The notes beneath the pieces were generated by a model. It saw only the letters and a list, made by a program, of their open reading frames with translations. It was not told the origin of the DNA and did no database searches. From NCBI RefSeq assembly GCF_003073045.1, contig NC_037592.1, positions 6,065,924-6,129,923 on the forward strand: a DNA stretch of 64,000 nucleotides, written 5' to 3'. Below are positions 1 to 64,000 of the stretch, in pieces. The DNA is from Pomacea canaliculata. Lineage: Eukaryota > Mollusca > Gastropoda > Architaenioglossa > Ampullariidae. Position 1 is the first letter of the stretch. The number at the start of each line of letters is the position of its first letter. The position numbers and the translations under genes were made by a program.

Positions 1-1074
1 GAGCTGGCTAAACAAAAAGATATTTGTGAAGAGAAGCTAAGGTCGTTTACGAAATGTTTACTAGAACATGACTTGAACATCAATGAGCTTGACAGTGATT
101 ATAATTCTCCTTTGATCCTTGCAGCCAAGCAACAAAACTGGAATTATGTTGTTGTGCTGTTACAACATGGTGCAGAAGCAAAGGTAAATGTCGACAACCA
201 ATCTCTTTTACATTTTGTTATTGCTAACCATAGAGACATTCCTCATGTAACTTTGACAAGTTTGCTGGATGCGATGCAAGGTCGGGGAATTGACTTCAAC
301 AGTCTCGACTATGAAGGAAAGACAATCTTGTTTACAACGGAGGTGTATTCTTCTATCTCTTCTGGACAGGATCCTTCTGGCTCATTGTTTAGGATGCTGG
401 TCAATAGAGGAGCGAATCCTTTAGCTGCTGATTCTGAGGGACACTCACTACTCCGATTCGCCTTAGATGTCAATGAGGATTTTGAATTAAACTTACTGAA
501 ATTTCTTGTGCAAACTGGAATAACTACCTATCAACCAGCCTTGACAGAAGCTGCCAGAACCAGAATGGCTGTTTCCGCTTCAGTCTACTCAACTCCATCT
601 CCAACTCAAGCCGCCTTTAAAGTAGAAGATGTCCAGGCCTTGAAGCTTCTGGTCGAATCAGGTGCTAGTAACAACAGGGAATTGTTTGAGCTCAGTTTGA
701 AGTATGAGAAAAAAATTGTAACCAACAAGACAAGAGTAAAGACAGAAATGATGGACATTTTGAAGCACGCTGCCTCTCAGCCTCGGTCTCTCAAGTCTCT
801 GTGTCGCCTGACTGTCTCTCACGCTCTTGGCTGTGGCACCAGAAGGGAAGAGAAGGTCACGTGTCTTCCTGTCCCTCAACGACTTCAGCAGTACATCCTG
901 TTTCATGATATACTGTCAGAAGAGCTTCAGACTCCAGAAGAAATATCTCATCATAAGCTGTCTAGGGGGAATAGAGGAATGTTTACCCAACCTTTCCGAA
1001 TATTTGTTTGTTGTCACGGCTACGTCTTGTCACGATCACGTCAACGAAACGTCCCTACTGTACGTAAACACTGA
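1..1074 (+). CDS. A1: C-terminal part of an ankyrin-repeat/SOCS-box protein (5' end outside window)
   Basis: The frame is open from base 1 (ELAKQKDICEEK...) to a TGA at 1072-1074, so the gene starts upstream of the window; the first internal ATG at 73 is not taken as the start. What remains is several degenerate ankyrin repeats (for example YNSPLILAAKQQNWNYVVVLL and GHSLLRFALDVN), a linker, a last repeat-like segment (VQALKLLVESGASNNRELFEL), then a SOCS box at about 787-906. The BC box reads SLKSLCRLTV, matching the SLxxxCxxxV Elongin-C pattern, and CLPVPQRLQQYILF matches a Cul5 box. By family knowledge such proteins bring substrates to a Cullin-Elongin ubiquitin ligase in the cytosol or nucleus; the substrate is unknown. 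The C-terminus after the SOCS box (about 60 residues) is variable between paralogues. No frame break is seen in the visible part. Confidence 0.8.
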   Translation, partial: ELAKQKDICEEKLRSFTKCLLEHDLNINELDSDYNSPLILAAKQQNWNYVVVLLQHGAEAKVNVDNQSLLHFVIANHRDIPHVTLTSLLDAMQGRGIDFNSLDYEGKTILFTTEVYSSISSGQDPSGSLFRMLVNRGANPLAADSEGHSLLRFALDVNEDFELNLLKFLVQTGITTYQPALTEAARTRMAVSASVYSTPSPTQAAFKVEDVQALKLLVESGASNNRELFELSLKYEKKIVTNKTRVKTEMMDILKHAASQPRSLKSLCRLTVSHALGCGTRREEKVTCLPVPQRLQQYILFHDILSEELQTPEEISHHKLSRGNRGMFTQPFRIFVCCHGYVLSRSRQRNVPTVRKH

Positions 1075-1286
1075 ATGACAGCAACTGGAGAAAATGTCAA
1101 TGATCACTTGTTTTGTGTGTTTCCCTTTTAAAGCTTTCTGCTTCCTTACCTCTGAAGACTTTTGGCGGAACATGTTTTACACTGTCATGTAGTTTAAAAA
1201 CTTTCTATTGCACAAATATATATTTTTGTATGTGACACGTGATCCCAAACATATTTTTCATTTACAGGTGCTTCTCCATGTCAGAA

Positions 1287-1292
1287 AATAAA
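1287..1292 (+). terminator. Candidate poly(A) signal of A1
   Basis: AATAAA about 210 bp after the A1 stop, inside a block (cttctccatgtcag then AATAAA) that recurs after A2 at 9115-9120. Conservation of position supports use as a cleavage/polyadenylation signal. Confidence 0.45.
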
Positions 1293-1689
1293 AGATGTGA
1301 ACACAACAATTTACTGAAAAGTTACAAGTTAAAAATAATTTCTAAAGGTGACTACTGCCTCCTAAAAGCAGCGCTGACTATTTCATTATGTCATCAATTG
1401 AGATATCACAGTTCAAAGTTTATACTTAATGCATTACATTGACAGAGGCACGTTCGACTGTAAATGTTATCTTCTATTTTTAACAACTTACTGCTATTCT
1501 TTCTGATAAAAGAAACATTTAAATTTGTGATTTACAAAATGCCCCATGATAAACATAACGGCGATGAGTCGAATGCCCCAGATACCCGATCCCCACCCCA
1601 AGTATCGATATCAAGCGACCTCATAGAGCTACATGAAGATATCTAATATCAAATCTCTGTGTGTCATTATTTTCTGCCTGTAAAGTTTA

Positions 1690-1890
1690 CATTTAACACC
1701 TATCTCTCACTCTAAATGAGAGGTCCAGCATCTCATTTAAATTATACTAATGCTAAGGACTCGCAGATGTCTATTCAACTATTGTCACTGATGCTACCGT
1801 CAGGTGCAATAACGACATTATGAACAAGAAGAAATTTTAAGATTTTTCCTGAGAGCTACTGTTACTGTTTATGAGAACTATGACAAAGCC
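1690..1890 (+). repeat. Diverged direct repeat, copy 1 (partner about 3290-3460)
   Basis: Shares an ordered set of short matches with 3290-3460: 'tatctctcactc', 'taatgctaa', 'gcagat', a 'cctcagag/cctgagag' block and 'actgtttatgagaac' versus 'cctgtttatgagaac'. It looks like an old tandem duplication of non-coding DNA between A1 and A2. Confidence 0.35.
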
Positions 1891-4658: not shown

Positions 4659-7600
4659 ATGACAGCAATCATGACACAGTATGTGACTACAGCTTCATTA
4701 CGAAAAGCAGTTGATTCAGGGAACTGGTTCACCGTCAAAGCACTGTTGAATAAAAGACATGTGAGCAAAGATGTTATTGAGAAATCTGGTTTACTGCATA
4801 AGCTGGTGACCAGCACTGACATCAGCTTAACGCTCATGAAAGACATTGTGGACAAGATCTGTTCACATCATGTCGACCTTAACTCTCTGGACGAAGGAGG
4901 TATGGGAGTTCTGCACAGACTTTGCATGTCCTCTGATACTGAGCATGATGATATCCTATTCCTTCTGCTCAAAAAGGGCGTCAATATTAATTTAACGAAC
5001 ATTGACAATGACACGCCTCTACATGTTGCTGCTAAATGCGGGAGCTGGCGGATGATGATTGCTTTACTCCGTCGAGGGGCAAAAGGTGGTGTTGCAAATA
5101 AAGAGAAGAGAACTGTTTTACACATTTTTGCTGAATATTTTCCCTCGCTTAAGACACTTTCCCAAAAGTACATTGACAACATCTTTACACTGCTGAAGAA
5201 AACGTCTCTACATATAGATGCCGTTGACTGTGAAGGCAACACCGCCCTCCATGTAGCAGTTGGACGAGGAAAAAGTCTCATTGCGGAGAAGCTGCTGACG
5301 ATTGGAGCTCGTGCTGATGTTGTAGATGCAGACGGTAGAACTGTGCTGCACATCATGGCGACACAAACACACGAATATTCCTCGTCCTTTTTGATGCAAA
5401 TTGTGAAATGTGGAGCAAAACTAGAAATTAAGGACTGCGCGGGAAATACTGCTTTCCATTTAGCTTCCATCTATGAAAACTGGCATTTCCTGGAAATGTT
5501 TACAGATACATTTGTATCCAAAACTGACGACAATCAGATTCATTTTTCTTTCAATGATGAGTTGCGTGCAGCTGTCGAAGGGAGACGTTGGCATGTCGTG
5601 AAATGGATGGTAAAGTACTCCACGGATATCAACAAACCTGACAGCCAGGGACTTACACTGTTACAAACACTCGCGCAGTTCAACTCTGACAAAAACGTGG
5701 ATGAAGCATTCTCTTTACTAGTAGACAGGGGGGCAGACTTCACGGTTCAAACCAAAGATGGCGAAAACTTGCTGCAGTTTTCCATTAGACACAACAACTG
5801 GCTTGTTGCAGAGCGCTTAGTAAGGATTGGGTTTGGCTTCTGCGAGCTTGACAGCGAGGAACGACTTGGCCTTCTTCAAAGACTTCTTGAACAAAAAGCG
5901 AAGCAGCCAACATCACTTTTCATTCTCCTCTGTAACAATGCAGCCAATATTACAGTTCGTACTCAAAGTGGGGACACATTATTGCAAATGGCAGCAAAGC
6001 ATGGCAATATAGCTATGGTTAAATATCTGGCTCGCAAGTCATGTAGAGAGACTTTAAACAAACTCGACAGTGAAGGTTTTAACATTTGGCACAGACTAAT
6101 GCAGCATCAATATGAAGAATCGAGCGAGTGTCGTTCTAGAGAGTCGCCTTTACTTTCTGTTGTTAACCTTTTAATAAGCAAAGGAGCTGACCTTCTGAGC
6201 CAATGCACAACAGGCGACACGATACTGCATCTAGCAGCCAAAAACAATCACTGGGACATAGTTAATCATCTTGTTGAGTTTGGGTTTGATGTAAACGAGG
6301 CTGACAGCGAGGGCCTGTGCCTTCTACACAGACTTGTAAAATCTAAAGAAGACTTCCGATGTTCTTCGTGCAAACTTATTGAAAATGCATCGTATAGACT
6401 TTTCCAGAAGCTTCTCAGGATGGGAGCCGATCCCTCCTTCCGTACTCACAGTGGTGACCATGTCGTTCATTTAGCGGCAAGACAAAGAAACTGGACAATG
6501 GTCCTTCACTTTTTTGACCAACAAAAGGATGTTATTAATGAGCTTGACAGTGAAGGGTTTAACATCCTCCACAGGCTGGTTCAGGACAATGTCACAAAGA
6601 GGAAGAGCTCACTTTTAGTAAATTTAATAAACAAGGGAGTCAATCCGAACATATCATCTCCACACGCCGGAAGTGCATTGAACATGGCGGTGAAAGCCCA
6701 TCAGTGGAGTTTTGCCATACTTCTGGTGGAGATGGGCGCTGATTTAGATTCTCAAGATCCTGAAGGTAACACGGTACTGCACGTTACTGCAAAGATGAAC
6801 AACTGGTCCTTTGTAGTATATTTGTTAAAGAAAGGTGCACATGCAAAGCTCCCGGACAGCGAAGGATATACTGTCTTACACAGGTGCCTTAGTGCTAGGA
6901 GGAACACGTGTGGACAATTACATCAAGACTGTGACACTACCATGGATCTTATTTTAAACAGTGATGTTGATGTGACAATCCAAGATCCCGAAGGAAACTT
7001 AGCGATTCATCTACCAGCAATAAACGGAGACATGACTCTGGCCTATAGGCTGATAAATACTTCTGTGAACTTGGATTTAAGGGACAACGAAGGTTTTACA
7101 TGGCTTATGAGAGCTTCACAACAACCGTCACCGGAAGAAGAACGTGTGAACTCTAACAGCGACACTGTAAGTGTTATTAAACAATTACTGGACAGTGGGG
7201 TCGACCCTGAAGCCCGTTCTCCCGATGGGATGACCGCTTTTGAAATGGCTGTCCAGTGTAACAACTGGCCTGCAATACTAGCGCTTCTTCCTCGATGTGA
7301 AGTGAAGATCGGTGACAATGTTTCATTGACGAAGGCACAGTACCTTCATGAGCTGGCTAAACAAAAAGATATTCGTGATGAGGAACTAAGGTCTTTCACG
7401 AAAACGTTACTAGAACATGGCCTGAACATCAACGAAGTTGACAGCCACGGTCGTTCACCTTTGATCGTTGCAGCAAAACATCAAAACTGGAATTATGTTG
7501 TTTTGCTATTACAGTATGGCGCAGAAGCAAATGTAAATGTCGACAACCAATCTCTTTTATATTTTATTATTTCTAACCATAAAGACATTCCGCTTGCATT

Positions 7601-7892
7601 ACTTACGGCTTTGCTGGATGCCATAAGGTCTCGGGGAGTCGACTTCAATAGTCGGGATTATAAAGGAGGGACAATCTTGTTTGAAGAAAATGTGTACTCT
7701 ACTGTCTCCGATGGACAGGATTCTTCTAGCTCATTGTTTAGTTTACTGGTCGACATAGGAGTAAACCCTTTACTTGTTGATTGTAAAGGACGCTCACTGC
7801 TCCGATTCGCTTTAGATTTACATGGAGCTTTGGCATTAAACCTGGTGAAATTTCTCGTGCAAACTGGAGTAACTACCATCAACCAAGCTTGA
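4659..7892 (+). CDS. A2: long ankyrin-repeat protein (1,077 aa), SOCS box left out of frame
   Basis: Starts at the first ATG after the proposed splice acceptor (MTAIMTQYVTTASLRKAV). Nearly the whole product is ankyrin repeats, roughly 28-30, arranged as alternating pairs: one with the core G-[ND]-T-x-LHxAAK-x-x-NW and one with DSEGF-x-x-LHRL. No transmembrane segment or signal peptide is seen. Compared with A1 and A3 the frame is lost just after FLVQTGVTT: 'actaccatcaacc' here against 'actacctatcaacc' in A1, a one-base loss, so translation stops at NQA and the SOCS box continues in another frame (7893-8728). As read, the product is an ankyrin scaffold without an E3-coupling domain. This may be a real mutation or a one-base assembly error; either way the array itself is open and shows alignable repeats throughout. 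Confidence 0.75.
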   Translation: MTAIMTQYVTTASLRKAVDSGNWFTVKALLNKRHVSKDVIEKSGLLHKLVTSTDISLTLMKDIVDKICSHHVDLNSLDEGGMGVLHRLCMSSDTEHDDILFLLLKKGVNINLTNIDNDTPLHVAAKCGSWRMMIALLRRGAKGGVANKEKRTVLHIFAEYFPSLKTLSQKYIDNIFTLLKKTSLHIDAVDCEGNTALHVAVGRGKSLIAEKLLTIGARADVVDADGRTVLHIMATQTHEYSSSFLMQIVKCGAKLEIKDCAGNTAFHLASIYENWHFLEMFTDTFVSKTDDNQIHFSFNDELRAAVEGRRWHVVKWMVKYSTDINKPDSQGLTLLQTLAQFNSDKNVDEAFSLLVDRGADFTVQTKDGENLLQFSIRHNNWLVAERLVRIGFGFCELDSEERLGLLQRLLEQKAKQPTSLFILLCNNAANITVRTQSGDTLLQMAAKHGNIAMVKYLARKSCRETLNKLDSEGFNIWHRLMQHQYEESSECRSRESPLLSVVNLLISKGADLLSQCTTGDTILHLAAKNNHWDIVNHLVEFGFDVNEADSEGLCLLHRLVKSKEDFRCSSCKLIENASYRLFQKLLRMGADPSFRTHSGDHVVHLAARQRNWTMVLHFFDQQKDVINELDSEGFNILHRLVQDNVTKRKSSLLVNLINKGVNPNISSPHAGSALNMAVKAHQWSFAILLVEMGADLDSQDPEGNTVLHVTAKMNNWSFVVYLLKKGAHAKLPDSEGYTVLHRCLSARRNTCGQLHQDCDTTMDLILNSDVDVTIQDPEGNLAIHLPAINGDMTLAYRLINTSVNLDLRDNEGFTWLMRASQQPSPEEERVNSNSDTVSVIKQLLDSGVDPEARSPDGMTAFEMAVQCNNWPAILALLPRCEVKIGDNVSLTKAQYLHELAKQKDIRDEELRSFTKTLLEHGLNINEVDSHGRSPLIVAAKHQNWNYVVLLLQYGAEANVNVDNQSLLYFIISNHKDIPLALLTALLDAIRSRGVDFNSRDYKGGTILFEENVYSTVSDGQDSSSSLFSLLVDIGVNPLLVDCKGRSLLRFALDLHGALALNLVKFLVQTGVTTINQA

Positions 7893-8728
7893 CGGAAGCT
7901 GCCAGAACCAGAACGTCTTTTTCGGATTCAGCCTCCTTAAACCGTTTATTACATTCAATACCTTCTCCAACGCAAGCAGCATTTGAAATGAAAAATGTCC
8001 AGTCCTTTAAGCTGCTGATAGAATCAGGTGCCAGCGCCAATAGCGAGCTATTTGAGCTCAGTGCACATTATGCGGCGAAGTATGTAGTTAAAGATAAGAC
8101 TAAAGCAGAGACACGGATGCTGAACATTCTGAACCACGCCGCCAGTCAGCCTCGGTCTCTCACGTCTTTGTGTCGCCTGACTGTCTCTCACGCTCTTGGC
8201 TGCGGCCTCCGTAGAAGAGAAAGGGTCTTGACCCTCCCCATTCCTTCATCCCTCCAGCAGTATATCTTGTTTAGTGATATATTGTCTGAGGAGTTTCTGA
8301 CATCAGAAGACGAAACAGAAAACCGAATTCCGCACTCTTGGGGACAAGTCTCTGGAATAAGCATTTTGTCCTTCCACGTGTTCCCGGGATTGCCTGATCG
8401 GAGATTTTCTTCCATAAATCACCGTCAGCAAACCTTACTTTTATACCCTTTACTTTGTGATGTGAGTTTTAACGACCACGTTTTCGTATCTGCTTCTAGG
8501 CAGCCAACACTGACCTCGATTAGTCCTCAAGAAACATATTGTCACAGAGCTGACCGTGCATTAAAGTGCTCACAACAAGCACGCGCAAATCAACAGGTGA
8601 AAAATTTCGTGCGCGTTCAAGCGTTGTCCCGCCCGCGGCGCTTCCTGGCAGACCGAGGCGTGCCGCCCCCTCACACACTCTCCCGGTCGCCGCATCAACG
8701 GAAACGTGTCACCAAACGCAAACACTAA
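7893..8728 (+). pseudogene. A2 displaced C-terminal part: last ankyrin segment, SOCS box and long tail
   Basis: Continues the A2 homology in a different frame from about 7889 (MTEAARTRTSFSD..) to TAA at 8726-8728. It holds VQSFKLLIESGASANSELFEL, then a SOCS box at about 8150-8271 (SLTSLCRLTVSHALGCG ... LPIPSSLQQYILF; BC box and LPIP Cul5-type motif intact). The tail after the SOCS box is about 145 residues, far longer than in A1, A3 or A4 (47-65), and includes a GC-rich Arg/Pro-rich part (about 8600-8700) unlike the surrounding AT-rich DNA. The last bases (caacggaaacgtgtca...) again match the A-type end, so about 250 bp seem to have been inserted within the tail without closing the frame. It would be translated only if the upstream shift is an assembly error or is bypassed. 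Confidence 0.6.
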
Positions 8729-11092: not shown

Positions 11093-11093
11093 G

Positions 11094-12959: not shown

Positions 12960-14010
12960 TACTGGATCAATATAGACGATCCTATCTATTCTTCTTCGTG
13001 CATCATCGGAATGCTGCAGTTCTTCGGTGGAGTCTTCGTTGCTGATCCAAAAGATGTTAAGTATGCGCCTTCCGTCAAACTCCTGATCGTGGATGGCTTG
13101 GTTTCTTAAGAAGGCCTTTGTTTTTTCATGCATGTCTTGGGGCGGTGTGACAGCAGGGCAATGTCATCAGCAAAGTCCAAGTCTTCCAGCGTTGTTGTTG
13201 CTGTCATAGTCATGGTCCATCTGATCCCTCGTCCTCTCAGTCTTCATGATCCAGTCCATGGCCAGGATGAATGCAGCCCTGCTTCACCCGGTACTGACGT
13301 TGAAGGGGTCTGTGAGCTCTGTGTCACAGACAACCTGGGATTTGAAATCGCTGTACAGCATTGCAATGACCTGAACAAGTTTTGCAGGGACTCCGTAATG
13401 CCTCAATCTTCCATAAGGACTCGCGTGGATGCTGTCAAAAGCCTTCTCCAGGTCGATGAAATTGATGTACAAGCGGTGTGTTCCATTCGTTCTCTGCCCA
13501 CAATCTGTCGCATGAAGATGTGTTCGGAGCAGGATCGCCCAGGACGAAATCCTGCTTGCTGTGGTCGGAGGTCTTTCTGAGTTGCCGTCAGTCTGACAAA
13601 ACAATCTTGCTGAAGACCTTGCTGGTGAGGGAAAGAAGTGTTATGCCCCTCCAATTATTGCAGTCTCTAGAAGATGAGCCTGTCTTCCAACAGGGAGCTG
13701 CTGATTCCCAAATTTGCTTGAAGATTTCAGTCAGCTTGGGAGCTGTCACATTTATATGGCTGTTATTCCAAATATGTCTGCAAGCTGAATCTGGTCTGTT
13801 CATCAAAATGTTCCTTCCAGCGCTGTAGTTTTTCTGCCTCTCCCTCGATGACATTATTCAACTGCACATCACTGTTGTTTTTACTCAGTGTCTTCAGGTC
13901 ATTTTTACTTGCTGCATTTTCTGCTTCATCTGCCAGTTATGGTTTAGTTTTGCATATCTTTGTCTGAGTTGTTCTTTCAGGCGTTCAGATCTGACTTGTG
14001 ATGACTCAGT
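12960..14010 (-). mobile_element. RTE-like LINE fragment (reverse transcriptase) nested in the hAT element
   Basis: Read on the minus strand, pieces of a non-LTR reverse transcriptase appear in order. They are EAEKLQRWKEHFDE (about 13845), NNWRGITLLSLTSKVFSKIVL (about 13650), QQAGFRPGRSC (about 13550), LYINFIDLEKAFDSIH (about 13440), GVPAKLVQVIAMLYSDFKSQ (about 13370) and a catalytic-motif segment DLDFADDIALLSH (about 13180). The set is typical of RTE-clade elements such as SjR2-like ones. The piece is 5'- and 3'-truncated and broken in several frames. It lies between the hAT left end and the transposase remnant, so it inserted into the hAT before or after that copy jumped here. Confidence 0.75.
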
Positions 14011-14221: not shown

Positions 14222-15168
14222 TCAGTGAGACAGCTGCGGTCGATCACAGTTGTCAGCAAGTTGCTTGAACTCTGGCTGCATGTCGGATGTAGAAATCCTC
14301 AGTAACGACTGCACGTGAACATCAGTTAGACTGGAACGCGGATTTGTCTTGTTGATGTTCATGGTCGAAAATGTTTGCTCACAAATGTATGTAGACCCGA
14401 ACAGAACAAGCAGTTTCATGGCCATCTTTCTCAGGTTGGCAAACTTGGACTCATTCAGTGAGACATACAATTTGTCAATGCTTTCAGATTGGAATTTCTC
14501 TTTCAGGGTAGTCACACTGCAGGTTAGTCGATTCCAGCTGTAGAGCATCCGGCACCTTTTCAAAGTCAGTTGTAAACGGGGATGACAAGATATCAAACTC
14601 TGCAGCAATTTTCTGGAAATCCGCAAATCGACGAGCAAATTCATTGTCTAGTGTAGATATCATATTGGTGTATTTCTCAGCTGACATCATCTGGGCTGAC
14701 ATAGTCTCCAGTGTTGGAAAGTAAGTTGTGATATTCTGAAAATTCACAATCACTGAGCGATTTGCTGTGCTTGGCAATGTTGTATGCGACCACAAAGCTG
14801 GCAAGAGTAGCAGCTTTCTGGGCTACTTTGGTTTTGACGAATAGATTCTGCTGCTTTACAAGTTTTCTGTCCAGTTCTGTTGCTCTTGTTTGCCATTCCG
14901 CTGCTGATAAAGTCCTGCCATAGCCTGCATGTGTCGTCGCATCATGGCGGCTAGCGTTGTACTCTTTCATCACGGCAACACTTTCACTGCACAACAGACA
15001 TACTGCTTTCTTGCCGACTTCTAAATCTAATGCTAACTGAAAACAAAGAATCAAAAAACAAAGAAAACAAAGAACCAAAAAATGACTAACAGTCACTATT
15101 ATTCGACGCAGTAAGCAAGTAATTAGTGGGAGATTGCGGCAGACTGTGGCCGCGGGCCACATTATCAT
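14222..15168 (-). pseudogene. hAT transposase remnant (Charlie8/GTF2IRD2-like)
   Basis: Three overlapping minus-strand frames carry recognisable blocks: N-terminal Cys-rich segment with AVCLLCSES and KEYNASRHD (about 15000-14930), KQQNLFVKTKVAQKAATLASFVVAYNIAKHSK split across about 14860-14760, FPTLETMSAQMMSAEKYTNM (about 14715-14660), and the C-terminal dimerisation domain ending PEFKQLADNCDRPQLSH at 14222. A full-length transposase of this group is around 600 residues; the region between the N-terminal block and FPTLET is missing, which removes the catalytic core. Confidence 0.7.
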
Positions 15169-15260
15169 GTACGACCAGAAACAGTCTGCGGGCCAGTCAA
15201 AATCCCGTCGCGGGCCGGATCCGGCCCGCGGGCCGTATGTTGCCCACCCCTGTATTAGAG

Positions 15261-16920
15261 GATATTTACTTTAATCATGTTTATTTTCTGAAAAGCTCAA
15301 GAGCAAAAGGACTTTAATGAGTGTAGTCAGCGGCCAACAATTCAATATCATCACTATTTCCATTTAACTTAAAAAAATTATCAGACAAATGACAAATGCC
15401 CTACTTTATTAATCCCAGTGGGCAGTAATACTCAGGAAGTGGGCTCAGTTACAGAAGTTACAAAAATGCAGACAGAGCAAGTGCTTATTACAAGATAAGG
15501 ATATGTGTACTTCAGAAATATTCAGTAGTCTAACAGTAAATTGATTTTGCTATTTATTCCTTCCTTAAGCACCTAGCAAATGCAGTGGATGATCTATCAA
15601 GCAAAAATTCAGTTGATAGAGTTAACAATATAGCAAAATAAAAATAAAATAATACTGTCTTTGAAAACTTTTTGACATCTTACCATCCTTCGAATGTACT
15701 TTGTATAATATTAATTTACAATTCTAAAATATCAAAATGCCAGACTGGAAATCATCTGCCTCTGAAATTAAACAGTACAGTTTATCTTAGACAAAAGTAC
15801 ATTCCAAAATGTGTTTATAGTTTAGTAATAATAAAAAACAGAAAAATTAACTTAAATATGCCAACGTAGTAACAGACCCAGCCTGCAAAACTAGTGGGGT
15901 AGTGGTGGGCCCCACTGCAAGTTCACTACTAACCCACTAGTTTTGCAGGCTGGGGAATCATTAACAATAATAATCATCATACAACTTAGACTTTAATGAC
16001 AGTGAATGTTGCACATTAATTTTTGATTTAAAACTTGTTTAATTTAAAATAAATCTGGAAAAAGATTTTCCTACCAGTACATCGAGTGAAATCAGTTTCG
16101 ACCTTTTTTTTCATATAACTTCAGGAGAAGCTTAACCTTGATCATTGTTTACTTTTGCATAAAGTTTAAAAAGCTGTAAGGCTGTATTCCAAAATCAGCT
16201 GTTTCCTTTTTTTGGCAAATAGGTCAAATCTTCAACACGATAAGCTGAGTGATGTTTCTTTAGTTGACTCAAAGACATGCACAAGTCTGCTGCACTGAAC
16301 CACACTTGCTATTAGAAAAACCGCCTGTGTGCCAGAGGGGTGTGTTCTGCTTTCCTAGTAGCAGGTGAGAATACCGGTGTTTGAAGGCTTATAGCCTAAA
16401 AATTAATAATTATGTACTTATATTTTTGGAATTATTATTTTAAAATAACTTAAAATGATCATAACAAAGCAAATATTACACACAGGTTAGCCTTTAACTT
16501 GTTGGTTTGTACAGTGCACAATGAAGTCTGTATTGTCTGTATTCAAATCCTTGACAGGGGAAGCTAGTTTGCTGTCGGGATTAAAAAAAAGTCTCTGTTT
16601 GGTGAAATCTGATAGTATATACACAGCCTAGAATTTTATCTTTTAAAATGTATACTTTGTATAGGGTATACTGAATAACTGTTAAAGCCCAAATATCTAA
16701 TGCTGTTTTTATATATATAATATTAATCTGCTTTAACTATTCCATGAGATTATTTCTCAGTATAAATGTAAGGGATTAAAAGAAGTGTACATAATCGGAT
16801 ATTGAACGCACAATATACAGCAATATTTACCCATATTTGTTTTATAAATAAAATATATAGGCACAAGTAAAACACTTTTCAATATTCTCGCTGTCAGATT
16901 TGCTTGATGTGCTGTTTAAC
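15261..16920. other. Putative B1 5' intron, last part
   Basis: The first 50 bases and the part from about 16265 onwards align with the B2 upstream DNA (40718-41429). About 950 bp in between (15320-16268) has no counterpart there and includes a foldback at 15877-15954. The intron would end at the conserved 'gctgtttaacag', AG 16921-16922 (B2: 41428-41429). No gene seen. Confidence 0.4.
15877..15954. repeat. Foldback (hairpin) element of 78 bp
   Basis: A near-perfect inverted repeat: 'cccagcctgcaaaactagtg' on the left and its complement 'cactagttttgcaggctggg' on the right, with a GC-rich centre (tgggccccac). It lies in the 950-bp stretch present upstream of B1 but not of B2. It could be a tiny MITE or a locally formed palindrome; no target duplication is obvious. 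Confidence 0.6.
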
Positions 16921-16979
16921 AGAAGTAACTCTAACCTGGTTGGAGTCAAAGGCACCAAAGTCACCATCCAGCGGCGCTC

Positions 16980-27039: not shown

Positions 27040-27295
27040 TGCTCCTATATGAATCGCCAAGAATTCTTCAGGACCTTCTAGTTAATAAACTTTGATACAC
27101 TCAGCTAACGTCTATCACACTTTCTTTCTTGTATTTACTACAGTCAACAGATGTTTTCAATATCTTCTTGTCTTAAGAGTGTTAACTTAAAAAAGTAGAA
27201 TCACATATTTAATGGACAAAGCCACTGCACTGTTACCAGAGAGTCAAATTTATTGTCTGGGTTCGCAAAATATGATATTAGCGGAGCTGTTGAAC

Positions 27296-37381: not shown

Positions 37382-37479
37382 AACACTCGGCTCAGGGCCG
37401 TGCTTAGGGGCAGGTGTCAAGGGCCATGCACATACCTTATGCCTCGGGCCCCGCGGGGGGTAAGAACGGGCCTGACTGT

Positions 37480-48473: not shown

Positions 48474-48887
48474 TTGTTTGAGCTGAGTGAACAGCATGAG
48501 AAACCATTACAACTCGAAAAGACAAGAGCAATGAAAGAAATGCTGGACTTTTTGAAGCAGGCTGCCACTCAGCCTCGGTCTCTCAAGTCTCTGTGTCGCC
48601 TGACTGTCTCTCACGCTCTTGGCTGTGGCACCAGAAGGGAAGAGAAGGTCACGTGTCTTCCTGTCCCTCAACGGCTTCAGCAGTACATTCTGTTTCGGGA
48701 TATACTGTCAGAAGAGCTTCAGACTCCAGAAGAAATATCTCACCATAAGCAGTCTAGGAGGGATAGAAGAATGTTTGCCCCAATTCGCCCGTGGGTATGT
48801 GGGAATTCACTCATGTCACGGGCACGTCAACGAAACGCGCCACCCACGAAAACACTGAAGGGCAGTAGCTGGAGTAAATTTCAGTGA
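48474..48887 (+). pseudogene. A5: duplicated A-type C-terminal tail with SOCS box only
   Basis: An open frame matching the last 138 codons of A4 (FELSEQHEKPLQLEKTRAMKEML, then SOCS box at about 48570-48690: SLKSLCRLTVSHALGCG and CLPVPQRLQQYILF) to the TGA at 48885-48887. It begins abruptly mid-gene at 48474, the left edge of the 4.1-kb duplication, and has no ankyrin repeats or start region of its own; the ATG at 48474 is fortuitous. Best read as a truncated duplicate. A transcript reading through from B2, which has lost its own SOCS box 2.8 kb upstream, is conceivable but nothing in the sequence requires it. Confidence 0.7.
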
Positions 48888-51359
48888 TTACTTAATTTGG
48901 TATTAATTTTCTTTCCTTTCTTGTCTTTTTTTCCCTTGCCTATTTAATTTATTTGAACAACCACTCCTTCAATTGCTTTTGAACGTTTTGGTTCAATGCG
49001 CTGTGACAGTTATTTTTTTGTCATTGAGTCAACTTGCTGTCTTATAATTGCTAATAATCACACTGCATTCATCGTTTTGTAAATATTTGAAAAAAAGCAA
49101 TTACCTTGATGAGAAAAAATTATGTGAAGGAAAGCGTTTGACGGAAAATGTTTTACACTGTCAGGTGGCTTATTAAGTTTATATTGTAAATAATTTGTAC
49201 ATGACACATAATTTCGAAGATGTTTAAGTGTCTGTTACAGATGCTTCTTTATGGAAAGAAATGAAAGATGCGATGAGATCATAACAATAGTCATAACGCT
49301 GTGTCTTCTTTGTGTAATAATTTGTCTAAAATGTCAATCTTAACTATCGAAACTTTATTTATTTTCATCTATGATAGATAACTAATCTTGCAGTGTAGGA
49401 AATATTGAGACAGCTGTGAGGGATGAGAAACGTCTATGTAATCCTTGTTTGAGCATCTTCATGTGCGCAAATTAAAAAGAGGAAAACATAACATTCACTG
49501 AGCTGATGTTATAGTTACACAGTATACATACATAGATCATCTTATGACTACTTTCAGCTAAGTATTCGGGTCATGATGACATTTTACCAATAACCATTTT
49601 TTTTTAAAATTATTGTAACGCCTTTTACCAACTGTAAGCAGACACTTGCTGTGTATTTTGTAAAGTGAAGATGTGACTATTTCATTATGTTAATACTTAA
49701 AAGGTATGATGTTTCGATTGGAATGTTACAGTATACTTTTATATACTGCTTGTATATACTGCTTGTATATACTGCTTTCCATGTTCGCCTGTAAATCTTA
49801 TCTTTTAGCTTTGACAAATGTTTTGCTATTATTGATACAAAATTTTCAATTTATGAATTAGCAATTGCAACGCTAGTTATTTTTTTACTCACTAGTACAG
49901 CTACATTTATCATCGTGGACGGATCATAAAAGGGGATCGGTTCTCCTTAGTTTTGTTTTTATTTTGTGGTTGTGGTTCGATTTGAATAAAAATGTTGGAC
50001 CTTCAAGTTTGCATGTGCTTCTGCTGCGTTTTCTTCCTCTTGCAACAGGACTGTATATAAAATGTTATTTGAAAAAAAAACTGTGTGGATCTGTTGGCTG
50101 GAGGCCACTCCGCCATCTTCACTCGCTTCGGCAGCGACCGTGATCTGCATTGAATGAACTGAAGTGATGATCACCCTCTTGCGGTTTCATGTGATAGCAT
50201 TTCTTAATATTCTCAAGATTACTCAATATCTTCTCAAAATTCTCCTGATGTTACTAACCATATTCTCTGGAGTCACTTCCGTTAAATCTACAGTTATCGG
50301 CTTTACCACTGTTCTTCCTTCTACATTCTTTGTTATTATTTTGTGATTTGTTTCTATATCTTTATTGCTAATTTATGATTTGTTTAACGTAATGAGTCCG
50401 CCTTTGGCTGAGATATTGCACTTTATGAATTCTCACTTGTCATCATCATCATCATTATTATTACGACTACTCTTCCATTTAAACTACTATAGCTGCCCAG
50501 TTGTTCAGGCTGCAGCGGAGGAAGAACTTGAAGGCGATCAAAAATGAACTGACAGATTCTACTACAGCTCTACAATCCACTTCCCCACACCCCCATATCC
50601 CCAACCCCCCACCCCGATGATCAGTAAAGGTCAAGTGACTGCAATCAGTTGCATTAATGCATGTCTAATTTTAACATTACTTGTGTCATTATTTCATGAC
50701 CCCCTGTTTTTGTGTCATAATTGCCGTCCAGTAATCCGAGAATTGGCTTAAGCCGAAATGCTTGGATCCCAATGTTTGGACACTATGTATCGTACGGACC
50801 TAGACATGGCCTCAAACGCTTGGGACAAGTGTTGACATGTGTCATTTGGGTATTTCCAATGTCCGTGATTGACATATTATGGCGGATTAAATATTTAAAT
50901 GCTGACTTATAACTTCAAAGAGGTATTTATAGAAGATTAGGCATGTATTTATCAAATAAACAATAAAATAACTTACAACGAAATTAAAAATATTAATCTG
51001 TTTTATCCACACCGAGTCAGCGTTGTGGAGGCGCCAAAATTGTTGCCGATTCACACCTGACAACGCTACGAAGTTAATCCGCGGTACAATTCCCCCCAAA
51101 AAATCGACTCGTGTTTAAAGTATTATTTTTGATTGAGTAATCTGGGTAACGTTTGAAAATTCATGTAAATATAAGCAGAGGTTAAGTAGTCTTGGACGCC
51201 AACCACAGTCTCTTAATGGCCTACACTGTAGTTTGTAATGAGCAATGGTCGAGTCGTTTGTGTGATTCTGATCGCTTGTGTTGTTTGTGTTCATGCGCCC
51301 ATGTATCCACCGCCAAACCAACTCCACACCGTCAGCACCCGGAGTTAAGGTAAATGTAA
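48888..51359. other. Duplicated A-type 3' flank and spacer; no gene seen
   Basis: Near-copy of 33513-36009 with small gaps, including the 13-bp tandem repeat at 49741-49778 and C-rich stretch near 50590-50620. Confidence 0.5.
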
Positions 51360-51558
51360 CAAGTTTGTATCTCTTTCGACTAATTTTGTAACCGACAGCA
51401 GATACTGAAATGAAAGTAGTCTTTGTCAGAGTTTTCTAGGTAGCGGCCTACTTTCCTGTCACTGTTTCTCATTACAGGCATGACCTACAGTCGTACCAAC
51501 CTACCTCGGTGAGTGCTTCAGTCGGTAGCAATGGCGACCACAGACCTATCTTCCTCAG
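51360..51558 (+). other. Putative non-coding 5' exon of B3
   Basis: Contains 'ttttgtaaccgacagcag', 'gtagcggcctactttcctgtc', 'agcaatggcgaccacagac' and 'tcttcctcag', then GT 51559-51560 (gtagcg). The matching acceptor is 'tcatttacacag', AG 52636-52637, giving an intron of about 1.1 kb. Joining the ATG in 'caatggcg' to the second exon meets an in-frame stop within it, so the exon is treated as untranslated. Confidence 0.45.
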
Positions 51559-52722
51559 GTAGCGTGACATAACAAATTATTTTAATGTTCTTGTTTCATT
51601 TCGCTTTGACACACGCGTGTAATATTCGCGTTAATGTCAAAACCGTTAAAAATAGGATAACTTTGTAAAACATGTAGAGGCTGTTTGTCTTAATGACAAG
51701 GATATTCACCACAGAAGTCCTACAAACTTAACAATAATAAATAAAATTTGTCAAGCCCATACTCACACTCCTAAGGTGTCGCATGCATTTCATTCTATTT
51801 AATCTTAACACATCTACAACACTCGAATTGAGAAGTTATGACTGTTAAAACAGACGAATGTTTTAAACCTGTCCACTTATTTTTCAAAATGAATGCATAA
51901 ACTCACTGCAAAACCAAATTTTGCTGACAAAATTTTGGAACACGCGACAATTTTCCTCTCCAATATATCTGTCGTTAGATAGAAACAATTTGTCTTTGAC
52001 AATCATAGGTGTAAATAATACTGGCGAGTATAATTAAAACGAAAGTTGCTTTTATATTTTTCTCCAAACACTGTTGGCTTTCATTTTGAATTTCTTTAAC
52101 TTTCCTTTTCTGGTTGATTGCTGATACACCAGATCTTAAGCCAAGAAGAAATATCAAGAAGTACTGACGAGATGACTTTCTGCTATTGGCAGTATACTAG
52201 AGGTTCACTAACAAAGGACAGAATCTTCGTGGTAAGGTCTTGATGTATTTGAATGTAACAACGTTACAAGTATGGAAGGTACTAATAAAACTAAATAAAC
52301 ATTAAAGAAAGATTGTTTCCAATGCAATAATTAGTAATATAGTAGTAATAATTATCTTTTGAGAAATGATCTTGGGGGAGGTATTCTTGATTATCAATGA
52401 TAATTTTGTCTAATGTCCTTTATACTATACTAATTAACTACAAAATAAAAGCAATTTTTTGACAGATATTTAACAGATAACAGCAGAAATACTAAATCGA
52501 CATTTAAAAGCAATGCATGCAGCATAAAATTAGTTTAAAATTTACTTTAAAAGGCGAACCATAAATGTATTAAAAGTTATGTATTAAAAGTATGTAAAGT
52601 CTACCCGCCACTAGATTGTTTTGATTCATTTACACAGGCAGCCTCAAAGACATCTGTAAGTAGCAGTCATGGAGTAAAGTCCCCAGACTCAGGAGTCTTC
52701 AGTTGTAGCCACAAGCCAGGAC

Positions 52723-55700
52723 ATGGCTCATCCAAACAAAGCTCTGCCACTTAGCAAAATGGCAACAGAACTAAACACAGCGGCTGAGTCTAGTAACTGG
52801 ACTCTGGTCAATGACTTGCTGAGTGTCGATGGCGTCTGTAGGTGTGATGTAGAGCAGTGCAGTCTCCTCCATAAACTGGCAGCAGCACCGGAAGTCAGCC
52901 TCTCACTGGCAGGAGACATACTGACAAAGATTCTGAAACACAAAGTAGACATCAACATGGTGGATACAAGCGGTGACACAGCTGTCGTGGTGGCTGCCAG
53001 ATGTGACAACACAAAGATGGTGATGGAGCTTCTATCCCGACAGGCAGCTCTACCACCTGATGTAACACACGTGTGTTCTTTCTTGCAGACTCTGACTAAC
53101 AACTGGAAACCACAAGAGACGCCTTATATGCACGCGCTTGTTGTCAAACTGTTGTGGGACAGACTACAAGACACAGCACTACACAGCTGTCACAAACAGC
53201 TTCACCACACACTGGTCCGGCTGGCAGTCACGTTTCACACGTCACTTGTACGTGAAATGTTTGTAACAGAACAACAAGTGAACTCTGTAGACAGTGAGGG
53301 GATGGCCGTGTTACACAGAGTGGCCATGTTTGATAGCGATGACCATGTCCGCCTTTTGCACTATTTCATCAGCAAAGGGGCAAATGTCAATCTACAGAAT
53401 ACTTCCGGTGACACACCTCTACATATTGCTGCCAAAAATAGCAACTGGATGATGATGGAGGCTCTGTTACACCGACAAGCCTACTGTGATCTGGTTAATT
53501 GTGAACAGCGCTCAGTTCTACACATTGTCGCTTCTTACACTAACCTTGAAGATTGTTATAACATCAATAAGATCTTCCGTTGTTAAGTCGTAACAACAAC
53601 GACATCAACAAAAAAGACGGTGAGGGAAACACAGCCTTACATCTGGCAGCACTCGCCGGTAACCTATCGTTAATGACGACATTATTAGGTCGAGGTGCTC
53701 GTGCTGATGGTGTTAACAATGAACAGAAGACAGTGCTACTCATGATGGCGATGACCAAAAGAGAACTATTCTCGAATATCAATTCATACATAAACGTTTT
53801 AGTGCTGACTGTAAAGAGAGGCGCTGATATTCAACAAAAGAATTGTGATGGTAACTCTGCTCTGCATCTTGCCGCCAAACATGACAGCTGGATCATGGTG
53901 GAATTTTTGTTGAAGTATGTTGACGATGCTGGTCAGCCTGACAGTGAAGGCTTCAACATTCTGCACAGACTTGCCATAGCAACATCCTTGCAAGACCACA
54001 GTTTGTTTCACAAGGTGGCTCAGAAAGTTGGTGACATCAATGCAAAAAGTAAAACAGGCGATACAGCCATACACCTGGCTGCAAAATGTCAGAACTGGGA
54101 CATGGTCAAGCTGCTAGAACAAGAAGGCGCCGCATGGGACGAACTAGACAGCGAAGGCTTTCATATTGTTCACAGATACGCTATGGGAAAAAACATGGAG
54201 CATAATATGCTTTCATTTTTGGATATTAGTATGTACTGTAACACTCGTTGTTGGACTGGCGATACGGTGTTCCACCTGGCTGCAAGGCATGGCAACTGGT
54301 CAGTGGTGGAACTCATTGTAGATTATGTGGATAACATAGACAAGGTAGATTCTAATGGTTTGACTGTTATTCAAAGACTTGTCATGTCAGCAACAAATAC
54401 ATTTTCTTCAGAGTATTCCTTATTCTGCCGCCTCATTGAGCTTGGCGCTGACTACACCTGTCGTGATCAAAACGGCGATACTGTGTTACACCTGGCAGCC
54501 AGAAATGGCCACTGGCAGATTGTCAAGCACCTTACGAACCTTGGCGCTGAAGTAGACACAAAAGATAGCGAAGGGTTTTCGATTCTTCACAGAATAGCAA
54601 CAGAAGAGAAAAGGTCTGATTCAGTCACTGCTAAAGAACTTTCACAGTGCGGTGCAATTATAAAACAAAAAGATCTTCAAGGAAACACACCTCTTCATCT
54701 TGCTGTCCAGCATAAAAATTGGGCCGTGGCCAAAGACCTCGTAAAATGCGGGGCAGATGTTAACGATGTCGACGCTGAAGGCTTCACAGTCCTTCATAGG
54801 CTAGGACAGATACACAATTATGATCACTCAAGTTTATCACTAATTGAGCTTTTACTTGAAAAGGGAGCTAGGTCTGACATTGTGTCAAATGGTGGTGAGA
54901 CCGTTTGGAAAATTGTAGTTCAGAATGAAAACTGGAGAATGATGGAATGTTTACTTGCTTCACGCAGACTTGTATTTAAAGAACACGAAGACAAATATCT
55001 TTTGCACAATTTAGTTTGCAGTCACCAAGGAGACAACCACGTCGAGCTCTGTGACCTGATTCAGAAAAGATTACCTGTAAATGCTAAGGATCGTGATGGC
55101 AACTCGCTGCTTCATCTCGCAGCAGGGGCAGGTAACTGGAAGTTGGTAAAAGGTTTGATACTAAAAGGTGCACGTGAAAACATGGTAGACAGCAAAGGTC
55201 TGTCAATTTTACACAGATTTGTTATTGGTGCTGACAGAGGAATGTACAGTTATAATGATACTTTAGATATGATTATGGATTCTGGTGTTAGTGTGAACGC
55301 CTTGGACCCTCGGGGTAACACAGCATTACAAATTGCAGCAAAACGTAGGCTGATGGGCATTGTGGACCGCCTAATAGACAGCACTGAAAATACAAACACA
55401 AAAGATGACGAGGGCTTTACTCTTCTGATGAGAGTATCACAAACGCCCTCGCCAGAATGTCTTTCTATTTGTCAGCGTCTGGTGCAGAAAGGTGCTGACA
55501 TCAACATCTGCTCCCCAGACGGCGAATCAGCTCTTCATCTTGCAGTCAGAAACAACAACTGGCCTGTAGTAGAATTACTGATGAACAGCGGGGCTCGATT
55601 TGAGGTTGAAATTTTGGAAGGTCTTTATCCTGTGCACAATCTAATAAAACATTCCACATTTGCTGAGGATAGTCAACTAAAATTAATGACATTCTTAACA

Positions 55701-57477
55701 TACAGTGACCATTCCACATCTTCTGAAGACAGTCAACTGAAACTACTGACATTGTTAAGAGACAGGGACTTTCTGTTAGCACACCAGATCCAAGGGGAAA
55801 GACACCCGCAGAACTTGCATTCACACTCAAGAAATGGAAACTTTTCATAATACCTTTTAGAATCAGGAGCTCATCTTAATCCACCTCTGAGAAAGGGAAA
55901 CTCATATTTTCATGAATTTGCAAGAAACACTTCTGCTTGCAGCAACATGACCGATATTACACGTCTCTTGCTTAGCCGTGGTTTCGACATAAACCTCAGA
56001 AACGACGATGGTGATACGCCTGTCCATGTGGCGGCTGATGAAGGCAACTGGGACACTGTAAAAACATTTGTGGATCACGGCGCTAGTACAAGCATACCTG
56101 ACAGTAAGGGTTATTATTTACTTCATAAGCTTCTTAATAAACAGACCCAGAACATTGCTATTTATATCTATCATTCAAAGACCTCCACCTACGAATCCCT
56201 TGAACAACTCCTAATAAGGACATTAGTAACACACGGCGAAGACGTCAACCGTCGAGGGCCAGACAACAAGACAGCCCTGCAAATAGCGGCTGGCAACGAC
56301 GAATGGGAAATAGTCGGAAAGTTAATTTCATTAGGAGCTGTTTATGAACTCAACCAGAATGAAAAACTGTCAGCTTTAAAACACCTTGACAGCTGTCATT
56401 GGGAAGATGTCACCAGGGAACAACTGCATCTTTTCATAAAATACATAGCAAATGACGGTTCTGCTATTAACAATTCGTTTCAAGAAGAGTACGGATATAG
56501 GAACCCAAAAACTGTGCTGCAGAAGTGTGTAGAACAGGCTAATTGGAAGATGGCGATTGCCTTAGTTGAATGCGGAGCAGACGTCAGTAACATGCTCTTA
56601 GAGCTGATGATGTCCAGATACTCGCAGGAAAATTACGCAACGTGGATGTGTTTTCTTGATTTATTGATATCGAGAGGTCTTGATATAAATACTAAACTTG
56701 TATATCGATCTGGAGTACTTTCAGTAATGACGTTTGCGAAAGCTTAGGAGAAAGTGAAGAGAATGCTACCAGTTGTTTGTTCAGTGCACTGTTGGAGAGA
56801 GGAGCCGATCCTCTTCTTGTCGAAATTTCAGGACAGACACTACTCAGAAAAGTCGTGGAGTTTGGTGGACAGCGCACTCTGAATGCTCTAAAGAAACTTC
56901 TTCCTGCTGGAGTGACAACGCATCAACCGAGGCTTACAGACGCCATATTGCTTCGCAAAGAAGTTTCTTGGAACAACCTGTCTCTCCCACAGAAAGAGCA
57001 GTACAGAAGCGACACATCTCCGCAGTCAAGCTATTGATCCAATCAGGCGCCAGCTCCAACTCAGAGTTATTTCGCTTGAATACAGAATACCAAGTGAAGA
57101 TGGCTGTGCTTGCAGACACAAATAACGATGTCAGAGAGCTCCTTGAGGTTTTAAGCAAAGCCGCCAGTGAGCCCCACTCACTTCAATCACTATGTCGTTT
57201 ATCGGTCTCTCATTGGCTTGGTTGTGGGCCTGGCAGGGCAGACAAGCTCAAGAGCTTGAAGATCCCTTCTTCGTTAAAAAATCTTATATCTTTTTGCGAT
57301 TTACTGTCCACAGAGTTTGTTTTCCATAAGCATGAAGATCTCAGCTCTAGCTTCTCAGAAGAGGATGATGACTTTCATCTCTACAGTGATTACAATGACA
57401 GTGACAGAAGCATAGATTATTCTGTCGGTGAAGATAGCTTACCCTTTCATTCAAATTTAGACTATTATTTTGAATAA
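52723..57477 (+). pseudogene. B3: long ankyrin-repeat/SOCS-box gene, frame-broken
   Basis: The ancestral start, as in B4, is the ATG at 52669, but here it is followed directly by a stop (ATGGAGTAA against ATGGAGTCA in B4). The next in-frame ATG is at 52723 (MAHPNKALPLSK). From there the frame runs 287 codons to 53586, then continues in other frames as 53580-55850, 55947-56747 and 56777-57477, with at least five shifts (near 53575, 55766, 55830, 56745 and 57000). Repeats are as in B2. The 3' end keeps VKLLIQSGASSNSELF, a SOCS box (about 57175-57305: SLQSLCRLSVSHWLGCG ... LKIPSSLKNLISF) and an acidic tail. An in-frame 60-bp tandem duplication lies at 55651-55770. A long first part (287 aa) or second part (756 aa) could still be translated, but the gene as a whole is disrupted. 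Confidence 0.75.
55651..55770 (+). repeat. 60-bp tandem duplication inside B3
   Basis: Two adjacent 60-bp units, 55651-55710 and 55711-55770, both starting attccacat and containing 'gtcaact.aaa'. They differ at several positions, so the duplication is not very recent. B1 and B2 have one unit. Being 20 codons long it kept the frame. Confidence 0.8.
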
Positions 57478-61644: not shown

Positions 61645-61725
<81 letters not shown>

Positions 61726-61726
61726 A
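61645..61726 (+). repeat. (GAT)n microsatellite
   Basis: About 27 uninterrupted gat units, 82 bp. Confidence 0.95.
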
Positions 61727-62279
61727 AATGCAAAATTTCTATAGCGCATACTCACACTTGTGAGGAGCGTGGTCTCAGCGTTTAACAACAAGAACGAGAC
61801 ATGAGAAACACAGAAAAACAAACAACATGAACTACGGAAGAATAAACAACAGTACCGATGACAAATAAAAAACAAATACAGAAAACGCAAAGAGGAAACA
61901 AACAACAGGCATCGAGTGTCGCGATACTGCAAAAGGAAGACGAACAGGAAAGAAGCAATAAAAACTTCTCTGACCGTTCTTTAGCTGTGGGTTAAGAGAA
62001 CGGGTCATTGTCACAAGTGTGAGTGGTTAGGTGGTGACAAAGTCGGGCTGTCACATCATCGTGAGGTTGTGACAATGTGGGGCTGCTACGTCATCGTGTC
62101 TGTTGGCCTTGTGTGACGATACTTTGTCCCGTGTATCAAAGTGCTACACCAGGTGGGTCGACAAGAGTTTAAACTACGGTGGAATGTACCCTAGCTATGC
62201 TGTATCTATCAAAACCAGTGCCATTGACAAAGAGTCGAGATAACTGTAACAAACTGATAGAGGGTTTGGTGGGGATTAA

Positions 62280-62477
62280 AACCCACACGCGATAGCAGTG
62301 AACCGAAAGTTGGTTTAAAGCTGAGTTTTCTTAGAGCGGCTTACTTTCTCTTTACTTTGTTTAGCCGTTGCTATGTACAGACATAATGCTAAAGACGTGT
62401 ATACCCAGATTGCTGTCGTTCCTGTGTAGTCTACCCAGTGCTGCAGTCAGAATGGGTGGAAGCTCTCACCTTCTCAG
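62280..62477 (+). other. Putative non-coding 5' exon of B4
   Basis: A diverged version of the B3 exon: 'gatagcagtgaaccgaaag', 'agagcggcttactttc', 'agtgctgcagtcagaatggg' and 'ccttctcag', with a strong donor gtaaag (GT 62478-62479). Acceptor 'attcacacag' AG 63325-63326 gives an intron of about 0.85 kb. Confidence 0.4.
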
Positions 62478-63357
62478 GTAAAGTTACTTCTGCAAATCAT
62501 CGTTCAAATTTCTTGCTAACTTTTAATCTTAACATATATGCTATATTCCAGTTATGACTGTTAAACAGACGAATTTTTAAACCTGTCAACTTATTTGTCA
62601 AACTGCATGCACAGCATACTCCAAATAAAAAAAAACATTCCACTGACAAAAATGTTTACAAACACACAGCATAAGGTTATTTTGCCCTCTAATATATCTG
62701 TCGTTAGATGGAAACAATTCATGTCTTTAATAATCATAGGGTCTAGATGTACCTAGCTGAAGTGTACATCTGAAAAGAAAGTAGCTTTTATGTTTTGCAC
62801 CGAACACGGTTGGCTTTCATTTTGAATTTCTTTAACTTTCCCTTTCTGTTTTATTGCTGTGGATCACATATTAAGCGAAGAAGGAATATCTATGAGTACT
62901 GACGATATGGCTTTGAAAACAACTTTCCTGCCATTGAAAAAATACAAGAGCTTTATTAACAGGGGACAGAATCTGTGTGGTAAGGTCTTGAGGTATTTGA
63001 AGATCAAAGCTTACAAGTTTGGGACGTACTAAGAAATTAAAGAAATATTAAAGAAATATTGTTACCAATAAGGTAATTTGTAATAATAGTCGTAGAAATT
63101 ATGTTGTTGGAGTAAGTTAGTCTAAACTAAGAGCCTTCATAAGTTCCTAATTAACTTCCAAAGACAGAGATTTAACAGATAAAAAGCAAATTACTAAATC
63201 GACATTTGAAAGACATGCATGCAACACAGCATTACTTTATAAATTTATTGAAAAGGAAAAACTCAAATACATCAAAATATTTGAAAAGTTTACCAGCCTC
63301 TAGACTGTTTTGATTCATTCACACAGGTAGCATCAAAGACCTCTGTGAGTAGCAGTC

Positions 63358-64000
63358 ATGGAGTCAGGTCCCCAGACTCAGGAGTCTTCAGTTGTCGCCA
63401 CAAGCCAGGACATGTCTCATACAAACAAAACTCTGCCACATATCAAAACAGCAACAGAACTAAACACAGCGGCTGAGTCTAGTAACTGGACTCTGGTCAA
63501 TGACCTGCTGAGTGCTGATGGCGTCTGTAGGTGTGATGTAGAGCAGTGCTGTCTCCTCCATAAACTGGCAGCAGCACCGGAAGTCAGCCTCTCATTGGCA
63601 CGAGACATACTGACAAAGATTCTGAAACACAAAGTGGACATCAACATGCTGGATACAAACGGTGACACAGCTGTCGTGGTGGCTGCCAGATGTGACAACA
63701 CAAAGATGGTGATGGAGCTTCTATCCCGACAGGCAGCTCTACCACCTGATGTAACACACGTGTGTTCTTTCTTGCAGACTCTGACTAACAACTGGAAACC
63801 ACAAGAGACGCCTTATATGCACGCGCTTGTTGTCAAACTGTTGTGGGACAGACTACAAGACACAGCACTACACAGCTGTCACAAACAGCTTCACCACACA
63901 CTGGTCCGGCTGGCAGTCACGTTTCACACGTCACTTGTACGTGAAATGTTTGTAGCAGAACAACAAGTGAACTCTGTAGACAGTGAGGGGATGGCGGTGT
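63358..64000 (+). CDS. B4: N-terminal part of a B-type ankyrin-repeat protein (runs off the window)
   Basis: Starts at ATG 63358 (MESGPQTQESSVVATSQDMS), 31 bp after the proposed splice acceptor, and is open for 214 codons to the window end. An in-frame ATG at 63412 equals the start still available in B3. It matches B3 closely: helical N-terminus (NTAAESSNWTLVNDLLSADG), first ankyrin repeats (DTNGDTAVVVAARCDNTKMVMELL), then the insert PPDVTHVCSFLQTLTNNW ... LHHTLVRLAVTFHTSLVREMF and the start of the next repeat (DSEGMAV). No disruption is visible so far. Whether it retains a SOCS box cannot be seen. Confidence 0.8.
   Translation, partial: MESGPQTQESSVVATSQDMSHTNKTLPHIKTATELNTAAESSNWTLVNDLLSADGVCRCDVEQCCLLHKLAAAPEVSLSLARDILTKILKHKVDINMLDTNGDTAVVVAARCDNTKMVMELLSRQAALPPDVTHVCSFLQTLTNNWKPQETPYMHALVVKLLWDRLQDTALHSCHKQLHHTLVRLAVTFHTSLVREMFVAEQQVNSVDSEGMAV

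Follow-up and report, generated by a model that had tools for sequence, protein, structure and literature searches.

Within 64,000 nucleotides of the Pomacea canaliculata genome (contig NC_037592.1, here C3, positions C3:6065924-6129923; 'the window', numbered below from its first letter) lies part of a large gene family that encodes proteins with ankyrin repeats and, at the C terminus, a SOCS box. Taken together with its relatives elsewhere in the assembly, some of which form giant open frames, the family is probably a lineage-expanded set of intracellular substrate receptors for Elongin B/C-Cullin-5 ubiquitin ligases, as its sequences and a structural model suggest. The domain content, open frames, copy number, a homogenised block and purifying selection were observed directly; cell location, ligase activity, targets and role are what we infer.

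Stop-to-stop frames and Pfam matches placed nine ankyrin/SOCS copies or pieces in the window, five of an A type and four of a B type, confirming the count of an earlier note made from the sequence alone. These are:

1-1074, + strand: A1, short ankyrin/SOCS open frame of 485 codons that starts 383 bp before the window; SOCS box 778-900
4659-8728, + strand: A2, long A-type copy in two frames, with a frame change near 7.8-7.9 kb; SOCS box 8147-8269
16935-21728, + strand: B1, B-type copy in several frames; SOCS box 21411-21524
25654-27081, - strand: A3, short ankyrin/SOCS open frame of 475 codons; SOCS box 25813-25935
32067-33512, + strand: A4, short A-type copy in two frames; SOCS box 33195-33317
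41487-45722, + strand: B2, uninterrupted 1,411-aa ankyrin frame without a SOCS box, deleted relative to B1
48471-48887, + strand: A5, 3' fragment; SOCS box 48570-48692
52723-57477, + strand: B3, B-type copy in four open pieces; SOCS box 57169-57282
63358-64000, + strand: B4, 5' end of a broken B-type copy that continues to ~5.8 kb past the window

The SOCS call, made earlier from visible motifs, held in the profile check, which brought no refutation: SOCS_box (PF07525) scored above the Pfam cut-off in seven of the nine copies (E-values of 1.4e-10, 1.3e-8, 1e-8, 9.2e-11 and 2.8e-11 for A1 to A5, 5.2e-6 for B1 and 3.1e-7 for B3), and also in both proteins scanned from a second contig, C7. All 25 tails compared carry a BC-box-like motif, SLxx(L/W)CRxxV, a count that is partly a product of selection because the tails were picked with the tail profile. 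In the A3 box (25813-25935, - strand), W replaces the usual L (SLKSWCRLTV). The segment that precedes the SOCS box is family-specific, scoring 75-180 bits in profile-spanning tails against 14-37 bits in four other SOCS genes of the genome; a fifth gave no match to the family tail profile. The presumed partners are also encoded, with Elongin C exons at 98% and 87% identity to the human protein and a Cullin-5 exon matching PDB Cullin-5 at 2.4e-23. A search with the Skp1_POZ family alone returned one two-exon locus only, which we take from its reading to be Skp1-like.

The earlier note expected complete B copies of more than 1,500 residues with well over 30 repeats and a terminal SOCS box. Such giant open forms do exist nearby, and none lies in the window, where B1 and B3 are spread over several frames, B4 is broken, and B2 is open with its SOCS box deleted (B1 20938-21545 is matched only by B2 45466-45521, between two homologous blocks). 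B4 leaves the window ahead of its tail, pieces of which lie at C3:6134243-6135754. Downstream, single open frames of 2,356, 2,289, 2,263 and 1,588 codons contain the N-terminal segment that we call the N-block, repeats and a SOCS tail, and further neighbouring frames have 2,182 codons (opening inside the N-terminal part) and 1,845 codons. Across the genome searched (440,159,624 bases in 24 contigs), ten copies hold N-block and tail in one open frame, 1,588-2,356 codons by frame length. Five of these are found at 26-137 kb downstream of the window and five elsewhere, namely one of 1,753 codons at C3:4.38 Mb and four of 1,707, 1,702, 1,638 and 1,624 codons at four C7 loci; in three of the ten (2,182, 1,753 and 1,707 codons) the frame begins downstream of the N-terminal start seen in the rest. 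The earlier label 'single-exon' fits the coding part, where the open frames span 4.8-7.1 kb. A non-coding exon may still be spliced on at the 5' side, although few of the 16 copies scanned upstream with an unfitted splice-acceptor matrix stood out: the fraction of random windows reaching the observed score fell under 0.05 in only three (L031 0.001, A6207 0.016 and B6259 0.018) and exceeded 15% in nine.

The ankyrin arrays proposed earlier were likewise borne out by profile search against the Ank families, with Ank_2 matches down to E 8.9e-99. Scored with two ankyrin hidden Markov models (HMMs) made in this analysis, the 14 frames counted have 20-44 repeats. The four with 2,182-2,356 codons score 38-44, where solenoid length divided by 34 suggests 51-57, and the six with 1,588-1,753 codons score 24-31 (25 in the 1,588-codon frame). 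Two repeat types largely alternate along the solenoid, and three of nine genes tested contain internal duplications, 76-91% identical and shifted by 44-91 aa. The 121-aa N-block has a weak Pfam ankyrin score; a novel N-terminal domain was considered and rejected, as the predicted N-terminal 330 residues (mean predicted local distance difference test score, pLDDT, 85.5) match ankyrin solenoids by Foldseek.

Genome-wide, the N-block gave 39 matches and the family-tail profile 51, the latter comprising 24 on C3, 25 on C7 and one each on C2 and C1, and taking in fragments and broken copies; the C1 match and that at C7:22.36 Mb are weak and perhaps represent other SOCS genes. Counted by place, the family accounts for 40 of the genome's 95 SOCS_box matches, which are themselves a lower bound. 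An unrooted tree of the 25 tails resolves three supported groups, the C7, B and A copies (99/98, 96/92 and 98/96), the A group including the copies at C3:4.33-4.39 and 5.97 Mb, and this grouping by place fits local expansion. Of the lineage-specific expansion suggested in the earlier note, expansion within this genome is supported by the N-block and tail matches and the tail tree. A lone relative on C2 (L044, C2:30340956-30342991) has ~30% identity to a giant tail, is split over two frames, and carries a BC box and LPVP; at a guess, it may stand near the founder.

The nearest known proteins over the SOCS part are the ASB family, substrate receptors of Cullin-5 RING ligases (CRL5), which share the order of ankyrin repeats and then a C-terminal SOCS box with a BC box. 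The best PDB matches of the tail profile, in designed and other ankyrin proteins, cover the repeats and rank above the ASB proteins; the SOCS part matches ASB7 (3e-8), ASB9 (1.8e-5) and ASB8 (1.3e-3). With Foldseek, the first eight PDB matches of the predicted tail are all ASB8, ASB9 or ASB7 complexes with Elongin B/C, of which only the first has E below 0.001. The Pfam and profile matches support the Elongin/Cullin receptor architecture that was first proposed, and the fold matches add to this weakly. Usual ASB proteins have about 300-600 residues; the snail family differs in its open frames of 1,588-2,356 codons, its own pre-SOCS segment, its 51 mostly clustered tail loci and a Cul5 motif that is loose in one clade. 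A long ankyrin solenoid is also found in ankyrin-1/2, NOMPC and TRPA1, PDB entries of which the B2 repeats match by phmmer, but unlike these the snail tails bear a SOCS box, and in the frames that were scanned Pfam detected neither a channel nor a death domain.

Our preferred reading is that the very long solenoid (24-44 HMM-scored repeats in SOCS-tailed open copies of at least 1,588 codons) would hold a target, and Elongin B/C and Cul5 would be engaged through the SOCS box at the C terminus. Local duplication would account for most of the family's growth, giving the clusters on C3 and C7, with the solenoid varied in part by internal duplication and the copies partly homogenised by gene conversion. 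Several observations weigh against this reading. Foldseek gives low template modelling (TM) scores to the ASB proteins, 0.24-0.32, for a tail model of moderate quality (mean pLDDT 72.3). Only a minority of the 51 tail loci are open along their whole length. B2 and the 1,845-codon frame (C3:6240444) are without a SOCS tail, and the 2,263-codon copy has no PF07525 match at E 0.001 despite its BC box, its tail scoring 163 bits with the family profile. Finally, LPxP is absent from nine of ten B-clade and two of five C7 tails.

Gene conversion is suggested by a block of ~330 bp near the 5' end of the B copies. In the window it lies at:

17292-17621, + strand: homogenised block in B1
41799-42128, + strand: homogenised block in B2 (the query copy)
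52981-53310, + strand: homogenised block in B3
63670-63999, + strand: homogenised block in B4

Over 177 kb, nine copies (B2 included) have this block at 98-100% identity to that of B2, and four further copies match it at 82-83%; all 13 matches lie in this cluster. Among the nine, 13 of 330 columns vary in the block against 330 of 668 in the ungapped flank. On the left flank, within the block and on the right flank, B2 differs from B6227 by 28.5%, 0.3% and 20.4%, and from its sister B1 by 6.7%, 1.8% and 4.5%. Copies B6251, B6218 and B6146 have a common alternative version, 17-19% away. Run-permutation tests gave uncorrected values below 0.05 in seven of the 11 pairs printed, the others being B2-B6240 (0.695), B6156-B6188 (0.319), B2-B6259 (0.065) and B6156-B6259 (0.0555). 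Strong protein constraint was rejected as the sole cause because four-fold sites are also nearly invariant (53 of 57 identical, four varying), and assembly collapse is unlikely because the nine blocks occupy separate places with different flanks and B1 keeps six differences from B2 within the block. The pattern is that expected of repeated gene conversion. Outside the block, third-position identity over alignment columns 280-2600 is 0.41-0.66 except in two windows (0.75, and 0.83 on 70 comparisons), and a second, weaker island (0.70-0.74) covers the SOCS box and the stretch immediately ahead of it.

The ratio of non-synonymous to synonymous substitution rates (dN/dS) was 0.20-0.95 in all 45 alignments printed, each of at least 80 codons and at least 60% identity; these are not independent, and the A1/A2 pair is counted twice. 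Between two open giants it was 0.58 over 2,234 codons, and codon positions 1 and 2 are more alike than position 3 in nearly all alignment windows. The family is thus under purifying selection, and values below 1 throughout support protein-level function, now or until recently.

Read by eye, the LPxP Cul5 motif is kept in eight of ten A-clade, three of five C7 and one of ten B-clade tails (A1 reads LPVP, A2 and B6156 LPIP, B6188 LNIC, L033 LLIP), where one B-clade row is a damaged fragment (C3:6150336) and rows within a clade are not independent. A published account gives LPxP as a requirement for binding Cul5 specifically and describes an incomplete Cul5 box in SOCS1, for which no Cul5 binding was detected (PMC4812663). 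With the BC box in every tail, B-clade proteins may bind Elongin without ordinary Cul5 coupling, and would then be giant scaffolds, decoys or inhibitors rather than ligase receptors; B2, which has lost the whole SOCS box and yet stays open for 1,411 codons, fits this. However, a true ASB protein departs from the motif too, as the ASB7 PDB chain reads LPIA, and the last P is retained in seven of the ten B tails (LxIP or LPIP), and we regard this alternative as unlikely. In its fullest form, about 50 ankyrin/SOCS loci of this snail, ten of them giant and open, would include a clade that sheds the Cullin-5 motif and keeps a strict Elongin-binding box, giving Elongin-tethered scaffolds of more than 2,000 residues that are no longer ordinary CRL5 receptors, while repeated gene conversion keeps a 330-bp N-terminal module uniform as the solenoids diverge; this picture we hold only tentatively, with the odds against it.

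It is quite improbable that the copies are mostly decaying duplicates and the window a pseudogene graveyard with little present function. The absence from the window of a copy at once long, uninterrupted and SOCS-bearing (B1, B3, B4, A2 and A4 being split) would agree with such decay, as would three alignments of B6251 with broken copies (C3:6147225, 6148719 and 6221036) at dN/dS 0.88-0.95, but the ten open frames near and far, the ratio of 0.58 between two giants and the excess similarity at codon positions 1 and 2 all speak for retained function. The earlier note had also offered, as an example, recognition of fast-evolving partners, so that the family would comprise pathogen-facing receptors with diversifying repeats. 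The clustered expansion, variable repeat number, internal duplications in three of nine genes and gene conversion are compatible with this idea, which gains no support from selection because dN/dS at DARPin-type binding positions equals that elsewhere: 0.51 (bootstrap 0.36-0.80), against 0.53 (0.42-0.65) in the framework and 0.54 (0.49-0.59) at other positions. This test used 11 alignments chosen from the 45, three of which (A copies) gave no mapped ankyrin positions, and is coarse, since only one of the two repeat types was mapped; in one pair, B6188/B6156, the comparison was 0.87 against 0.50 on 104 codons. Positive selection was not found at the binding-type positions of these 11 alignments, and we consider pathogen-driven diversification a rather doubtful account.

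The short frames of A1 and A3, whose codon counts run from stop to stop, are open and include a SOCS box, so some A copies may be more than pieces. Their first methionines are similar. A3, A4 and the C3:5.97 Mb copy have common homology reaching ~300 bp further upstream, while homology with A1 begins only at about its own start; A4 and the 5.97 Mb copy, whose tail frame has 180 codons, are interrupted. These four may constitute a short subfamily rather than fragments. A5 is 95.7% identical over 2.9 kb to A4 plus its 3' flank. Direct repeats ~15.3 kb apart (33099-37148 and 48474-52476), with blocks 96-99% identical, hold the tails of A4 and A5 together with the sequence that follows each, and read as a recent segmental duplication.

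Other elements lie between the copies. Pieces of a hAT transposase occur at 14225-15270 on the - strand (Dimer_Tnp_hAT 4.1e-6; the zinc finger is below its cut-off), and a recent hAT-Charlie explosion is reported for this genome (PMC6129957). At 13287-13640 (- strand), a frame without a Pfam match resembles by eye the reverse transcriptase of a long interspersed nuclear element, and a tandem repeat with a 119-bp unit (2.5 copies, 99% matches) occupies 37085-37385. Among the giant copies, frames that look retrotransposon-like by eye lie on the - strand at C3:6167775-6171729 (L012-L013) and C3:6198639-6202340 (L015-L016). A viral origin of the family gained no support from one scan of viral contigs with the tail alignment, which gave nine pattern matches, none of them a relative. 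In the window, Rfam found nothing at its gathering threshold and ARAGORN found no transfer RNA.

We found no description of the family in the titles and abstract openings of the matches listed from open-licence PMC text, and neither 'ankyrin' nor 'SOCS' occurs in the main text of the two P. canaliculata genome papers (PMC6129957, PMC11417965). The Gigantopelta genome paper reports an ankyrin repeat protein among expanded, mainly immunity-related families. The combination of ankyrin repeats with a SOCS box is already known; what appears new is the size, the single coding frame, the clustering and the clade-wise loss of the Cul5 motif, along with the 330-bp block homogenised across nine otherwise divergent copies. 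For P. canaliculata, an invasive crop pest whose genome is reported at 440 Mb in 14 linkage groups (PMC6129957), there are already two assemblies at chromosome level and 173 sequenced genomes (PMC6129957, PMC11417965), so copy-number and selection tests are possible with present data. If translated, the giant frames would far exceed the usual ASB receptors, and would provide a clear case for how a ligase receptor repertoire expands, for what a 40-repeat solenoid recognises, and for whether a SOCS box can retain Elongin binding without Cul5.

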